Below are positions 258 to 18,537 of a DNA stretch of 22,748 nucleotides, in pieces. The notes beneath the pieces were generated by a model that ran no database searches, was not told where the DNA came from, and worked only from the letters and a program-made list of their open reading frames with translations. Numbering within the stretch: position 1 is the stretch's first letter; each line of letters starts with the position of its first letter. The stretch is from a virus: the IMG/VR virus record IMGVR_UViG_3300047550_005471, positions 1 through 22,748 of that record. The stretch is one strand, 5' to 3'. A program made the position numbers and the translations under genes.

Positions 258-286
258 TTTACAGAATAAAAACGAGATGGTACACT
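258..286 (+). promoter_or_regulatory. Sigma70-like promoter A, -10 in a terminator loop
   Basis: TTTACA (258-263), a 17-base spacer and TACACT (281-286), preceded by an AT-rich tract. The -10 occupies most of the loop of the terminator at 271-304. A start about 7 bases downstream would be near 293, inside the 3' arm, leaving a leader of about 25 bases before ATG 318. Same layout as units at 7123, 16079 and 22425. Confidence 0.6.
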
Positions 287-304
287 GCTGCCATCTCGTT
301 TTTT
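271..304 (+). terminator. Intrinsic terminator A
   Basis: Perfect 10-bp stem AACGAGATGG (271-280) with CCATCTCGTT (291-300), a 10-base loop and a T run at 299-304. It ends the gene stopping at 247. A-rich sequence before the stem mirrors the T run, so it may work in both directions. Confidence 0.85.
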
Positions 305-769: not shown

Positions 770-790
770 AATACATAGGCATTTTTCTCT

Positions 791-828
791 CTTAAGATAC
801 TATTTATTATATGGTAATGTATCTTAAG
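791..828 (+). promoter_or_regulatory. RBS-occluding hairpin with a promoter-like motif in its loop
   Basis: Perfect 10-base inverted repeat CTTAAGATAC (791-800) and GTATCTTAAG (819-828) with an 18-base loop. The 3' arm overlaps the AAGGAG ribosome binding site (826-831) of the endonuclease gene at 839. A transcript coming from upstream can pair both arms and mask the site. One starting in the loop near 812, downstream of ACTATTTATTAT (799-810), lacks the 5' arm and leaves it open. The same logic is known for T4 lysozyme gene e and I-TevI. Confidence 0.6.
799..810 (+). promoter_or_regulatory. Late-type promoter motif, copy 1
   Basis: ACTATTTATTAT, 28 bases before ATG 839. One of seven copies of ACTAYTTAT found on the plus strand just before genes (others at 6740, 9029, 9925, 15723, 17796, 19276). 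The role as a late promoter is inferred from position and gene content. Confidence 0.5.
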
Positions 829-838
829 GAGTTTTAAT

Positions 839-1660
839 ATGATAAAAGACGATAAACCGCTAAAAAATGTCAGGAAAAAAGCATTAGAAAATAGGATAAA
901 AGGTAGACACAAAATTTGTTTAAATTGTTTAGTGGAATTTTGTTCTATAACTCCAACAGGTTACAGAACTCCAAAACAAATATGCTGTTCTGAAATTTGT
1001 TTTCGTAAATATGGTGTGGAAAAACGCCATAAAAATGGTACATATTGTAAAAACGAACAGGCAATAGAAAAAATGCAAGCTACAAAACTTGCTAAAAATC
1101 CTGATTATGGAAAAAAATGGGCGGCAGTAAAGCAAGGAATACAAGAACGAGGTTTGGGGGGTTTTGACAGATCAAAATATAAACATTGGTCACAAACCCC
1201 GGAAGGAAGAAAAAAAATAAGTGAAATTCATACTGGTAGGCAAGTCTCTGATTCCACAAGAAAAATAATGAGCGAAAGGATGCAAAAGCTTTTGCATGAT
1301 CATCCAAGCAAAATTTATTCTAACGCGAACGGTGGTAAAAGAGCCGATCTAAACAATCAATACTTCCGTAGTAACTGGGAAGCCAATTACGCTAGGATAC
1401 TTAATGAACAAAAAATTAATTGGGTATACGAACCGGAAACATTTACTTTATCAAACGGTACGACATACACACCAGATTTTAAGATAGATGAAAAAAAGTT
1501 TGTTGAGCTAAAAGGCTGGTTCGATAACGATTCAAAACAAAAAATAGAATTATTTCTAAAAGAGTATCCCGACTACGAGCTTGACTTGATAGGGGAAACA
1601 GAGTATTATTCTCTTCGCAATTTGTTCAAGCATAAAATTCTTAACTGGGAAGGCAAATAA
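839..1660 (+). CDS. Homing-type endonuclease (zinc finger, NUMOD3, PD-(D/E)XK)
   Basis: A 273-aa freestanding endonuclease. Residues 27-54 hold a Cys cluster (C27, C30, C49/C50, C54) that looks like a zinc finger. Residues about 120-155 match the NUMOD3 DNA-binding repeat (GRKKISEIHTGRQVS followed by S-x-x-T-R-K-I-M-S). The C-terminal part has a PD-(D/E)XK arrangement: W180-E181, P212-D213-F214, and E223-L224-K225-G226. NUMOD3 is typical of phage homing endonucleases. The last base of its stop is the first base of the DNA polymerase start, and its 3' end supplies the polymerase ribosome binding site. The masked RBS suggests it is silent on early read-through mRNA. The nuclease subfamily is less certain than the homing-type assignment. 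Confidence 0.8.
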   Translation: MIKDDKPLKNVRKKALENRIKGRHKICLNCLVEFCSITPTGYRTPKQICCSEICFRKYGVEKRHKNGTYCKNEQAIEKMQATKLAKNPDYGKKWAAVKQGIQERGLGGFDRSKYKHWSQTPEGRKKISEIHTGRQVSDSTRKIMSERMQKLLHDHPSKIYSNANGGKRADLNNQYFRSNWEANYARILNEQKINWVYEPETFTLSNGTTYTPDFKIDEKKFVELKGWFDNDSKQKIELFLKEYPDYELDLIGETEYYSLRNLFKHKILNWEGK

Positions 1661-4600
1661 TGAGTGAACAAAAGAAACCTAGTATTCCATTTTTTTCTAT
1701 GCACATGCACAGCACGTATTCTATATATGATGGGCTTGGCTATCCTGATGAATTCGCTGATTTTTCATTTAAAAATGGCCTTTTAGGCATGTCCATGACG
1801 GAGCATGGCAATATGAACAGCTTTGCCCATGCCTTCCAGAAGTCTAAAAAGATGAAAGAGGAAGGCAAAGATTTTAAAATTGTCTATGGCATTGAAGCCT
1901 ACATCCATCCCAACATTGAGGATTGGAAGCTTGAAAAGCAAAAACACAAGGAAGATGCCAAACTTGCCAAACAAGTCGATGAAGATGTTGGTCTTGTTGT
2001 AGAAGACGAAAAAGAAACCAAGAAAGGTTCACATGGAACGCTTAATCAAAGAAGCCACCTCGTACTCAATGCAATTAATCAAGAAGGACTTAACAATCTT
2101 TTTAAGATGGTTAGCAATTCCTATCGTGGCGATAATTTCTATCGTTATCCCCGTATGGACTACAATTTACTTAAGCAGCACAATAACGGAATCATCGCCA
2201 GTAGCGCATGCATTGGCGGTATTCTCGGCAATGACTACTGGCGTAATCACGAGCTTGGCGATAAGGCTGTATTTGCTGCAATGGAAAAGACTGTCCAGCA
2301 GATGATGGATATCTTTGGGGATCGTTTCTACGGCGAACTCCAATGGGCAAACTATAAAGAACAACATATTATTAATCAATTTATTATCCAGTTAAGCAAG
2401 CAATATGGATTTCAACTAGTTAGCACTTGTGACGCTCATTTTCCTTCGCCTGATATGTGGAAGGATCGTGAGATTTATAAACTTCTTGGCTGGATGGGGA
2501 AGCGCAAGGATGAGATTAAGATTGATCAACTTCCGCAATCGCTTGCTGAAATGGAGTACCAGCTTTATCCTAAGAACGGGGATGAACTGTTCGCGGCGTA
2601 TCGCGAATATTCAGCACGCCTTGGATTTTCTTACGACGATAAACTGGTAGAAGAGAGTATTGCCCGCACAGCAGATATCCTCCAAAACCGTATTGAAAAT
2701 TATACGCCAGATACAAGCATCAAACTTCCAAGTTTCGTTGTTCCAGAAGGCGAAACTGCTGATACTGCGCTTGCCAAAATTGCAGTTGAAGCGCTAAAGA
2801 AAAGCAATCTATGGCAAGACAGTACCTATATTGATCGCCTGAAAGAAGAACTTCACACGATTAAGGATCGTGGATTCTCAAAATACTTTCTTACAATGAA
2901 AACGATTTCCGATAAGGTTTCGGATAATCAACTGGTGGGTAGCGGTCGTGGATCGGGCGCTGGTTCACTAGTATCTTATTTACTTGGGATTACCCAAATT
3001 GATCCTATCAAGTACAAACTACAATTCTCACGGTTTATCCGTAAGAACGCTAAGGATTATCCAGATATTGATTATGACTGTGCTGATCCTATGGCCGTAA
3101 AAGAGTTATTTATTAAAGAGTTTGGCGAGAACAGTGTTGTACCAATCTCTAACTATAACACTCTGCAAATCCGTTCTCTTATCAAGGATATCTCCAAGCT
3201 TTATGAGATCCCGTTTCAAGAGGTGAACGATGTCACAAGCAAAATGTTATTTGAAGCTACCCCTCTAGCTAAAAAGGATCACGGAATTACTGCCGGTGTT
3301 TACAACCCAACTTGGGAAGAACTTAAAAAATATTCACCAGCACTCGACGCATATCTTCGTAAATACCCACATGTTGCAACACACGTAGAAAATCTACAGG
3401 GACAAATCCGTAGTATCTCTCGCCATGCTGGCGGTGTATTGTTCGCGGATAATCTTGACCAAAAAATGCCGCTAATTAAAAGCGGTGATGTTGTCCAGAC
3501 TCCTTGGGTTGAAGGACAAACTGTTCGTCATCTTGAACCATTAGGTTTTATTAAATTTGATATTCTTGGGCTTGCTTCACTTCGTATGATTGAAGACTGT
3601 ATTAAACACGTGCTTAAGCGCAAGCATGGAATTATGGAGCCAACTTTTGAAGATATCAAAAAGTTTTATGATGAAAAGCTTCACCCAAGCACTATTGACC
3701 TTCAAGACCAAAACGTGTATGATAACGTCTTCCGTGGTGGAAATTTCATGGGGGTATTCCAGTTTGCTACAAACAAAAATGCTCAAGCTTTTTGTATGGA
3801 TGCCAAACCAAAAAACATTGTAGACATTGCCGCCATTACCTCTATTTATCGTCCCGGTCCATTGTCGGCTAATGTAGATAAAAAATATGTTGAGGCAATG
3901 CGCAACCCAGATGAGATTAAATATATCCATCCGCTGGTTAAAGAGGTAACAGAGGAAACATTTGGATTTATTATCTTTCAAGAGCAGCTAAGTTTACTTG
4001 CCCACAAGCTTGGTAAAGATGTTAGCCTTGATGAAGGTAATGAACTACGTAAAGTGTTAACAAAGAAAGGTACCGGCAAAGAAGCCGCAGTAAAGGAAAA
4101 GCTATATGGTAAATTCGTTGATGGGTGCATTGAAAAAGGCATCAGTCAAAAAGATGCAGATGGCCTCTGGAAGACTATGGAATTCTTTTCGGGATATGGT
4201 TTTAACCTTTCACACGCGGTATGTTATTCCATCCTCTCTTATCAATGTGCATATCTGCTACATTATTACCCAGCCGAGTGGGCGTGCGCTTTTCTCGCGA
4301 AAGAGCCAGAAGATCGCAAAGAAACAGCTATTGCATTAGTAAAGCGTGCCGGTTTTAAAATTCGCAAGCTAGACATTAATTTATCAAGTACAGATTGGGA
4401 AGTTGATCCAAACGATAGTAACACTCTTATCCAGCCACTATCTTCTATTAAAGGTTTGGGTGATACAGCTATCGCGGAAATAATGAAAGCGCGACCTTTT
4501 AATACAGTCGAGGAATTACTTTTCAATGAAAAAATCTCATACAGCAAGTTTAATAAACGTGCGCTTGATGCTCTTACTCGTAGCGATGCACTACTTTCTC

Positions 4601-5118
4601 TCATGGATAGCCGCTTCACAGGTAGTAAACATTTCTGGAGTGCGGTAGTTGTTGATCGTCCAAAAACACCAAAGAAGCTGAAAGAGAATATTGAACTTTA
4701 TAAACCAGAAGGGGATTTCTCAGATGAAGAAAAAATCGAGCACATTACTCAACTTACTGGCGCTTATCCTATTCATCTTGTTATGACAGATGATATAATG
4801 GACAAACTTGCCAAAAAAGAAATTGAACCACTTGGGTATAAATCAACAAGTGACGATGGGGAAGAAGAAAGATTTGTAGGTAATAGACTTGTATGGTTTA
4901 TTCCACGCAGTAAGGAAGTTAAAACAACCAAAAACGGCAAACCATATTGGATCATTACAGCTACAGATAGTACAAACATGTTGACAGAAGTCAAATGTTG
5001 GGGTATAAGAGAGACAGATGTTATACACATGAATCGTCCATACTTGGCACAAATATCGGTAGATAGTTTTGGTAATTCTATTAGATCATTTAAGGACGGA
5101 ATAAAGCTACTAGCATAA
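1660..5118 (+). CDS. dnaE: DNA polymerase III alpha subunit (C family)
   Basis: An 1152-aa replicative DNA polymerase of the bacterial DnaE type. The N-terminal PHP domain keeps a full metal-ligand set by motif comparison: H15, H17, D24, H49, E79, H133, C184, D258 and H260. The palm has GSGRGSGAGS (427-436), PDIDYD with catalytic D469 and D471, and KFDILGL with the third Asp, D634. Fingers-type motifs MGVFQF, YRPGPL and GYGFNLSHA follow. Next come a helix-hairpin-helix region (IKGLGDTAIAEI) and a C-terminal OB-fold-like segment. Length is near the DnaE norm of about 1160. No dnaQ, beta clamp or clamp loader is in the window. The start overlaps the preceding stop by one base (TAATG), with GGAAGG just upstream. 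No own promoter was seen, so it is probably read from promoter A or further upstream. Confidence 0.97.
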   Translation: MSEQKKPSIPFFSMHMHSTYSIYDGLGYPDEFADFSFKNGLLGMSMTEHGNMNSFAHAFQKSKKMKEEGKDFKIVYGIEAYIHPNIEDWKLEKQKHKEDAKLAKQVDEDVGLVVEDEKETKKGSHGTLNQRSHLVLNAINQEGLNNLFKMVSNSYRGDNFYRYPRMDYNLLKQHNNGIIASSACIGGILGNDYWRNHELGDKAVFAAMEKTVQQMMDIFGDRFYGELQWANYKEQHIINQFIIQLSKQYGFQLVSTCDAHFPSPDMWKDREIYKLLGWMGKRKDEIKIDQLPQSLAEMEYQLYPKNGDELFAAYREYSARLGFSYDDKLVEESIARTADILQNRIENYTPDTSIKLPSFVVPEGETADTALAKIAVEALKKSNLWQDSTYIDRLKEELHTIKDRGFSKYFLTMKTISDKVSDNQLVGSGRGSGAGSLVSYLLGITQIDPIKYKLQFSRFIRKNAKDYPDIDYDCADPMAVKELFIKEFGENSVVPISNYNTLQIRSLIKDISKLYEIPFQEVNDVTSKMLFEATPLAKKDHGITAGVYNPTWEELKKYSPALDAYLRKYPHVATHVENLQGQIRSISRHAGGVLFADNLDQKMPLIKSGDVVQTPWVEGQTVRHLEPLGFIKFDILGLASLRMIEDCIKHVLKRKHGIMEPTFEDIKKFYDEKLHPSTIDLQDQNVYDNVFRGGNFMGVFQFATNKNAQAFCMDAKPKNIVDIAAITSIYRPGPLSANVDKKYVEAMRNPDEIKYIHPLVKEVTEETFGFIIFQEQLSLLAHKLGKDVSLDEGNELRKVLTKKGTGKEAAVKEKLYGKFVDGCIEKGISQKDADGLWKTMEFFSGYGFNLSHAVCYSILSYQCAYLLHYYPAEWACAFLAKEPEDRKETAIALVKRAGFKIRKLDINLSSTDWEVDPNDSNTLIQPLSSIKGLGDTAIAEIMKARPFNTVEELLFNEKISYSKFNKRALDALTRSDALLSLMDSRFTGSKHFWSAVVVDRPKTPKKLKENIELYKPEGDFSDEEKIEHITQLTGAYPIHLVMTDDIMDKLAKKEIEPLGYKSTSDDGEEERFVGNRLVWFIPRSKEVKTTKNGKPYWIITATDSTNMLTEVKCWGIRETDVIHMNRPYLAQISVDSFGNSIRSFKDGIKLLA

Positions 5119-9028: not shown

Positions 9029-9040
9029 ACTATTTATTAT
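9029..9040 (+). promoter_or_regulatory. Late-type promoter motif, copy 3
   Basis: ACTATTTATTAT, identical to copies 1 and 5. It is followed by an 8-bp hairpin (ATGTAAAT 9039-9046 with ATTTACAT 9052-9059) and then AGGAGAT before ATG 9084. The leader would be about 42 bases, the longest of the set. Confidence 0.5.
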
Positions 9041-17795: not shown

Positions 17796-17807
17796 ACTAT
17801 TTATTGT
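17796..17807 (+). promoter_or_regulatory. Late-type promoter motif, copy 6 (abuts the start codon)
   Basis: ACTATTTATTGT ends 1 base before ATG 17809. With a start 13 bases after the first A, the first transcribed base would be the A of the ATG. No Shine-Dalgarno is present. Supports a leaderless mRNA. Confidence 0.48.
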
Positions 17808-17808
17808 T

Positions 17809-18537
17809 ATGAGATTGGTAATAAAGCCTAAAAAAGATAATCCCGAAATACAATACGTTGGAACACCCCCACAAAGCGCCATTGGTGGCGCTATAAGCGG
17901 CGCGGGCTATCGTACCCGTAATACTGCTGGATTAGAGGACGAAAGCTCCACAGAGGCAATAAATGAGTGCGGATGCCCATGCGCAGCGTGTTCTGCTGGT
18001 GAACACCCAGATTACCCAGAAGAAATAACAAATATACCTCAAGATATGCTTGCTGGTCTTTTTGGAGATCCAGAAGTTATTTATGTTCTCGTAGGAGAAG
18101 AAGCTTTATTTGAAGGCAAAAAAAAGGGTGACCGCTGTGTACGTATAGCAAAACGCAAATACCATAAATGGCCTAGTGCATATGCTAGCGGTGCTGTTGT
18201 AAAATGCCGTCAAGGCAAAATCTGGAAGGGGTTAAAAGAATCAACAGAGCATGTTGAATATGAAGTATATGAAGCAACACTAGAAGAAGCAACCGCGCTA
18301 TTAGAAAAATATAAAAAGGTTCAGCAAGGGTCGCTTCACGATTGGTTTTCGCAAAACCGTGGTAAAGGTTGGATAGATTGCCGTACTGGCAAACCATGTG
18401 GAAGAGAAAAAGCTGGTCGCGGCGCAAAGCGCAAGTACCCAGCTTGCCGTCCTACAAAAGCGCATTGCAATAAAGCTGGAACCAGACGTAAAAAAGGTAA
18501 AGCAACAGTATCTTGGAAACCAAAGAAGGAACAATAA
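17809..18537 (+). CDS. Cys-rich DUF5872-like candidate virion protein
   Basis: A 242-aa protein. The N-terminus MRLVIKPKK is followed by a Gly-rich stretch and a Cys cluster (CGCPCAAC at about 54-61). A block GDRCVRIAKRKYHKWPSAYA, then SGAVVKCRQGK, is one I recall from many large-phage proteins. The C-terminal region matches DUF5872 in my reading: LHDWFSQNRGKGWIDCRTGK, PCGREK and KYPACRPTKAHC. It is followed by a very basic tail (RRKKGKATVSWKPKK). Acidic parts lie in the middle; the tail would bind DNA or head. No RBS; preceded by a terminator and a late-type motif. First gene of the putative virion module. Role not established. Confidence 0.78.
   Translation: MRLVIKPKKDNPEIQYVGTPPQSAIGGAISGAGYRTRNTAGLEDESSTEAINECGCPCAACSAGEHPDYPEEITNIPQDMLAGLFGDPEVIYVLVGEEALFEGKKKGDRCVRIAKRKYHKWPSAYASGAVVKCRQGKIWKGLKESTEHVEYEVYEATLEEATALLEKYKKVQQGSLHDWFSQNRGKGWIDCRTGKPCGREKAGRGAKRKYPACRPTKAHCNKAGTRRKKGKATVSWKPKKEQ

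Follow-up and report, generated by a model that had tools for sequence, protein, structure and literature searches.

A late-promoter-like motif inside a conserved hairpin over the ribosome binding site of a mobile, homing-type endonuclease gene in uncultured phages

Introduction

Does a homing-type endonuclease gene of an uncultured phage carry its own timing device, a leader that would keep the enzyme from being made until late in infection? The underlying logic, in which a ribosome binding site (RBS) is masked in a longer RNA and freed by a late promoter, is known from T4 gene e, soc, 49, I-TevI, I-TevII, I-TevIII and segB and from Aeh1 mobE (PMC2988022, PMC3014915). For T4 gene e (lysozyme), expression from the longer early RNA is reduced about 100-fold (PMC2988022, PMC3014915). 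The T4 examples left open whether early silencing of homing nucleases is an accident of T4 or a general rule. The DNA analyzed here, referred to in its entirety as the window, is a 22,748-base IMG/VR virus contig in which a nuclease gene lies immediately upstream of a polymerase gene. An earlier note had proposed that the leader of the nuclease folds over its RBS, and we have followed this proposal through the window and related contigs.

Results

A hairpin covers the RBS of the nuclease

The perfect 10-base repeat on which the proposal was built is present, with CTTAAGATAC (791-800) facing GTATCTTAAG (819-828) across a loop of 18 nt. Folding adds three pairs, C787-G831, U788-A830 and C789-G829, and leaves U790 (T790) bulged. 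With the help of this extension, every base of AAGGAG, which the note had assigned to the 3' arm, is paired in the folded leader. The late-type motif said to lie at the 5' shoulder and loop is ATACTATTTAT, which occupies the inner part of the arm and the loop (Table 1). The inverted repeat over the nuclease RBS is therefore confirmed as an observation. An Rfam search of the leader matched no family.

Table 1. Coordinates of features in the window
Feature	Position	Strand	Remarks
Nuclease leader, one inserted unit with the gene (as judged from similarity)	770..838	+	similarity boundaries; absent from empty site L017
Hairpin 5' arm	787..800	+	perfect part 791-800; extension CTC 787-789; T790 bulged
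ATACTATTTAT, late-promoter-like motif	797..807	+	core ACTATTTAT 799-807; strand bias, placement before genes, consensus
Predicted late transcription start, best guess A811	808..815	+	inferred from motif-to-ATG spacing
Hairpin 3' arm	819..831	+	perfect part 819-828; extension GAG 829-831; compensatory pairs L003/L004
Shine-Dalgarno AAGGAG of nuclease	826..831	+	inside hairpin; predicted P(open) depends on RNA start
Free-standing homing-type endonuclease, 273 aa	839..1660	+	PF05367, phrog_945, T7-type endonuclease I structures, six-sequence alignment
Polymerase RBS GGGAAGG	1647..1653	+	within 3' end of nuclease gene; 6 nt before ATG 1660
DnaE-like DNA polymerase III alpha (PHP domain)	1660..5118	+	conserved right neighbour of insertion

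Taken by itself, the bare repeat is only mildly unusual in such AT-rich DNA. Perfect repeats of at least 10 bp with loops of 5-30 nt number 4 in the window, as against 0-2 in 8 dinucleotide shuffles, and the fold z-score of the leader hairpin is -1.8. Masking of the Shine-Dalgarno (SD) sequence of the window leader was equalled in 0.5% of controls with a shuffled 5' side. Because the bare repeat is only mildly improbable, relatives were used to decide.

The leader and the nuclease gene form a mobile unit

The nuclease has a zinc-finger-like N-terminus (C27, C30, C50, C54) and a C-terminal PD-(D/E)XK endonuclease I domain (residues about 173-251). It matches Phage_endo_I (PF05367; E 2.7e-7) and phrog_945 (E 1e-15), its family profile retrieves T7-type endonuclease I structures, and the candidate catalytic residues E181, D213, E223 and K225 are invariant in an alignment of six sequences. 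The C-terminal catalytic domain is shared with T7-type endonuclease I (PF05367), which differs from the present enzyme in that the latter has the zinc-finger-like N-terminal fusion, is mobile and has no known resolvase role.

The same nuclease (55-75% identical) lies directly before the same polymerase in five other virus contigs, giving six with the window, and ten further contigs carry the polymerase without it. Searches of phage records by nucleotide and of 84,980 prokaryote genomes by protein-guided comparison found no relatives. One candidate, L074 (43% over 74 aa), was set aside; it is without such a leader.

Comparison of L012, in which the site is filled, with L017, in which it is empty, shows an upstream ORF that is common to near its end and is then followed by the polymerase start; leader and nuclease are both absent from L017. 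Between L002 and L012 the leader plus gene are 95% identical from approximately 72 nt before the ATG, and the upstream genes differ. Similarity between the window and L003 starts at 768, at the upstream stop codon. As judged from these boundaries, leader and nuclease were inserted together as a unit. A nuclease domain and presence or absence at one site are features of homing genes, and we infer that the enzyme is likely to be active in homing.

The loop contains a late-promoter-like motif

Across 14 contigs, ACTATTTAT occurs in 93 coding-strand copies and 2 opposite-strand copies, and for 61 copies a gene start follows within 80 nt. The letters of the motif were permuted two hundred times, giving means of 13 forward occurrences, 25 reverse occurrences and 1.4 such placements, the sole large outlier being an overlapping word, TACTATTTA. 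Genes 3' of the motif encode a tail sheath (phrog_23, E 5e-66), tail-fibre-like and scaffold-like proteins. The strand bias, the placement before gene starts and the late-type genes bear out the description of the motif as late-type, and support ACTATTTAT as a late-promoter-like signal across this phage group. The motif does not qualify as a T4 late promoter, since in 63 aligned sites no conserved copy of the T4-type TATAAATA element stands upstream of it. Nothing relevant on the motif as a late promoter of phages was found in the literature. Within the window, other copies are located at 9029, 15723, 17796 and 19276, each upstream of a gene start.

In two long contigs a protein has phrog_234, the gp55-like late sigma family, as its top match, though a weak one (E 4.5e-6 and 1.6e-4), and no match was obtained in the other contigs or the window fragment. 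These two contigs may encode a late sigma factor that is weakly gp55-like. The sigma factor profile PF04542 was also tried; it gave weak matches only, and phrog_234 performed better.

Five genes have an ATG just 3-4 nt past the motif, which bounds the transcription start. Since these ATGs are so close, transcription would begin at most about 4 nt beyond the motif, and the 5' end of the late RNA would fall inside the hairpin loop, near 811. The genes concerned (window 17796-17811; G002 45101; G004 55935; G009 110734; G010 31483) are without an SD and are probably leaderless late genes, a layout that is also common to many ATACTATTTATAGTATG matches in other virus contigs. A mini-ORF in the nuclease leader, ATGGTAATGTATCTTAAGGAGTTTTAA (window 811-837), starts exactly 3 nt past the motif and stops immediately ahead of ATG 839. 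An ATG is found at this spot in 6/6 family leaders versus 0/50 other late-motif leaders, and the mini-ORF is possibly a leaderless upstream ORF in the late RNA.

Pairing is retained as the arms change

In each of the six leaders a stem encloses the same motif. L003 and L004 show three differences around the hairpin, two of which make up a single paired exchange of G-C to T-A, and another double, compensatory change separates the window from L003. In these three sequences 10/10 pairs are kept, two of them changed on both sides, and slid registers pair at 13-63%; shuffled controls reached this conservation in 72/500 cases, a test that is weak with three sequences. The arms of L002 and L012 are wholly different and in another register (TCCTTTTAC/GTAAAAGGA), and are still complementary; those of L072 are different again (TCTTTCTTCT/AGAAGAAAGA). 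The six-sequence DNA alignment misaligns these shifted arms and was left out of the pair counts, and the core family provides only about four independent leaders. Across these leaders, complementarity to the RBS region is kept but the sequence of the arms is not.

A chance palindrome in AT-rich DNA would be in keeping with the z-score of just -1.8 and the 0-2 such repeats expected per window. It would leave unexplained why pairing is kept in six leaders, through compensatory change and replacement of both arms, and why masking stems are enriched at unrelated nuclease genes, as described below; we find it scarcely credible. The hairpin stands above chance because it is placed over the RBS, is conserved with compensatory change and has a promoter-like motif in its loop.

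Alternatively, the inverted repeat could be a DNA operator for the nuclease or another repressor, overlapping the late promoter, with RBS masking incidental. There is precedent in I-TevI, which represses its own late promoter via an operator (PMC2988022/PMC3014915); the loop bases TATG....TGTA are conserved in six of six leaders, and some copies of the motif lie in palindromes that do not reach an RBS. A protein site would nevertheless keep its sequence, and here the arms differ completely while the 3' arm continues to overlap the SD. Comparison of the leader with its own polymerase start likewise found no similarity. We regard an operator as improbable.

Long palindromes of 10-19 bp surround the motif at G012 4285, G007 26227 and G006 1927 (L064, L060 and L058), where they precede MKIS...LK..I.EE proteins and the RBS is outside the stem. 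A palindrome can therefore have another role elsewhere, and not all of them mask an RBS.

RNA begun in the loop is predicted to have an open RBS

The masking proposed for the nuclease leader was evaluated by predicted folding. In the window, the SD of read-through RNA is predicted to be open with a probability of 2e-6, which rises to 0.24-0.29 when the RNA begins in the loop, a gain of approximately 10^5-fold. The predicted contrast is similar or larger, from 10^3.9 to 10^9, in L002, L012, L003 and L004, with the absolute opening of the late form in L003 and L004 varying with the chosen RNA start. In L072 it is tenfold, and masking is weak and not better than in shuffles. Among motif-bearing genes, the median opening ratio was 10^2.4 for nucleases as compared with 10^0.07 for 48 others (p 3.6e-7; p 2.7e-5 with orthologues merged), one mismatch to the motif being allowed in the nuclease set and none in the other genes. 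Predicted folding and conserved pairing thus support the idea that the RBS would be masked in read-through RNA but not in loop-begun RNA, and translation of the nuclease from read-through RNA would accordingly be silenced if the model holds.

Read-through RNA and expression of the polymerase

The earlier note had named a specific upstream promoter, "promoter A," as the source of the read-through RNA. None was identified: in a scan upstream of the leader, sigma-70-type matches did not exceed the level in shuffles. In 9/10 nuclease-free relatives the late-promoter-like motif is absent from the 1.5 kb (0.9 kb in L007) ahead of the polymerase, which must therefore be transcribed from further upstream; early RNA would read through the leader into the polymerase gene. 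The separate RBS attributed to the polymerase was found (Table 1), and a similar GGGAAGG precedes the polymerase in L002, L003, L004 and L012. A candidate stem over the polymerase start (1621-1633/1660-1672) was rejected; by eye, it is not conserved in L002 and L003. In L072 (3108-3220) the polymerase frame is broken about 30 codons past its start, through sequencing error or in reality.

If the hairpin were a terminator with a late promoter placed within it, early RNA would stop before the nuclease. UUUU does follow the stem in the window (832-835), and the motif is found within terminator-like hairpins at G004 66464 and G010 76740. The U run, however, is not conserved in L002, L012, L003, L004 or L072, the 18-nt loop is too long for a usual terminator, a terminator scan reports none here, and stopping at this point would cut off the polymerase as well. 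A terminator is, in our judgment, highly improbable. Elsewhere in the window (268-303), a 13-bp perfect hairpin, AAAAACGAGATGG/CCATCTCGTTTTT, is accompanied by a T run and precedes the small ORFs that come before the nuclease; it is a probable terminator.

Masking stems recur before unrelated nucleases

In these contigs we surveyed genes of the GIY-YIG, HNH/Endo VII and endonuclease I-like types, using gene calls made by a simple script. SD-masking stems precede 10/28 nuclease genes and 16/1,169 other genes; stems with the motif between their arms, one mismatch allowed, precede 8 of the 28 and 4 of the 1,169. With the polymerase-linked family counted once, p is 1.6e-6 for masking stems and 7e-6 for stems with the motif, and with that family left out the counts are 3/22 versus 4/1,169 (p 2e-4). 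Examples are a GIY-YIG gene at G010 19235 (arms CCAGTAGAGTAATCTCG/CGAGATTACTCTACTGG), within a split-intein ribonucleotide reductase gene, an HNH gene at G002 42106 (arms CTCCTATAA/TTATAGGAG), which adjoins a DNA ligase gene, and a GIY-YIG gene at G002 20790, between dCMP deaminase and 5'-3' exonuclease genes. Four masked nuclease genes adjoin replication or nucleotide genes, sites at which early read-through is expected. The same hairpin design is also found at G004 12598, a 425-aa ORF without nuclease similarity.

The suggestion that silencing was "convergent or inherited" can be divided. Inside the polymerase-linked family, co-insertion indicates that gene and leader are inherited together; the occurrence of such a leader ahead of GIY-YIG and HNH nucleases, which are unrelated, points to repeated recruitment. 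We lean toward the broader reading that free-standing nucleases unrelated to one another (endonuclease I-like, GIY-YIG, HNH/Endo VII) independently gained the loop-promoter/SD-hairpin device inside replication or nucleotide-metabolism operons of this DnaE-encoding myovirus-like lineage, and that masking may be a general, convergent requirement for persistence instead of a T4 peculiarity. The precedent of F-CphI, which established that Endo VII-type phage proteins can be homing enzymes (PMC6083498), is relevant to the surveyed HNH/Endo VII genes.

Two loci in these contigs carry inteins. NrdA is split at an intein (L049:18043-19158, G010 19235 onward, L050:196-1227): the first ORF closes with the N-terminal splicing domain of an intein, the C-terminal part of which opens the last ORF, and between them is the GIY-YIG gene with its own late-type leader (17-bp hairpin). 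The locus resembles a fractured gene that combines a split intein with a nuclease. At L049:13895-16315, the intein interrupts a DnaB-like helicase and is made up of a Hint domain with a LAGLIDADG nuclease.

Discussion

We consider it very likely, from the comparative evidence, that the leader serves a mobile, free-standing homing-type endonuclease gene as a self-contained timing device. RNA started upstream, needed for the early polymerase, would hold both arms, fold and hide AAGGAG, leaving the nuclease untranslated early while the polymerase is translated from its own RBS. Late in infection, RNA polymerase would start at a loop-internal ACTATTTAT-type promoter, and the resulting RNA, without the 5' arm, would have an open RBS from which the nuclease could be made. 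The nuclease is probably translated only late in infection.

The mechanism is the known T4 one; what is new is the promoter, the phage lineage and the nuclease family. The likeness to T4 gene e and I-TevI drawn by the earlier note agrees with the reviewed arrangement, and extends to segB and Aeh1 mobE. As in I-TevI (and I-TevII and I-TevIII), a homing endonuclease has a late promoter between the 5' arm and an RBS that is masked early. Those enzymes are intron-encoded GIY-YIG or HNH proteins with TATAAATA late promoters and experimental proof, whereas the present one is free-standing, endonuclease I-like and associated with a ACTATTTAT-type motif. Aeh1 mobE and T4 segB are the closest architectural match, being free-standing genes in an early operon with a masked RBS and a late promoter (PMC2988022), but they belong to other nuclease families and other phages and use a T4-type promoter. 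In T4 gene e, soc and 49, similarly, the longer early RNA hides the RBS and late RNA leaves it free; unlike this nuclease, they are not mobile genes.

In the present phages this logic recurs with another promoter and in another lineage, at three or more nuclease families that are unrelated, and pairing persists through changes of sequence. Whether silencing is a rule is now testable by comparative genomics, and a handle is gained on the late promoters and mobile nucleases of uncultured phages. By tail sheath and gp55-like protein, the closest cultured phages are Flavobacterium phage immuto and Microcystis phage Mel-JY01. Unlike the window group, they have family A or B polymerases, and their proteins are about 30-40% identical. 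Both have a related strand-biased motif with a shifted consensus, which is clear in immuto, where [CA]TATTTATA occurs 28 times forward versus 3 reverse, for example before the sheath and tube genes.
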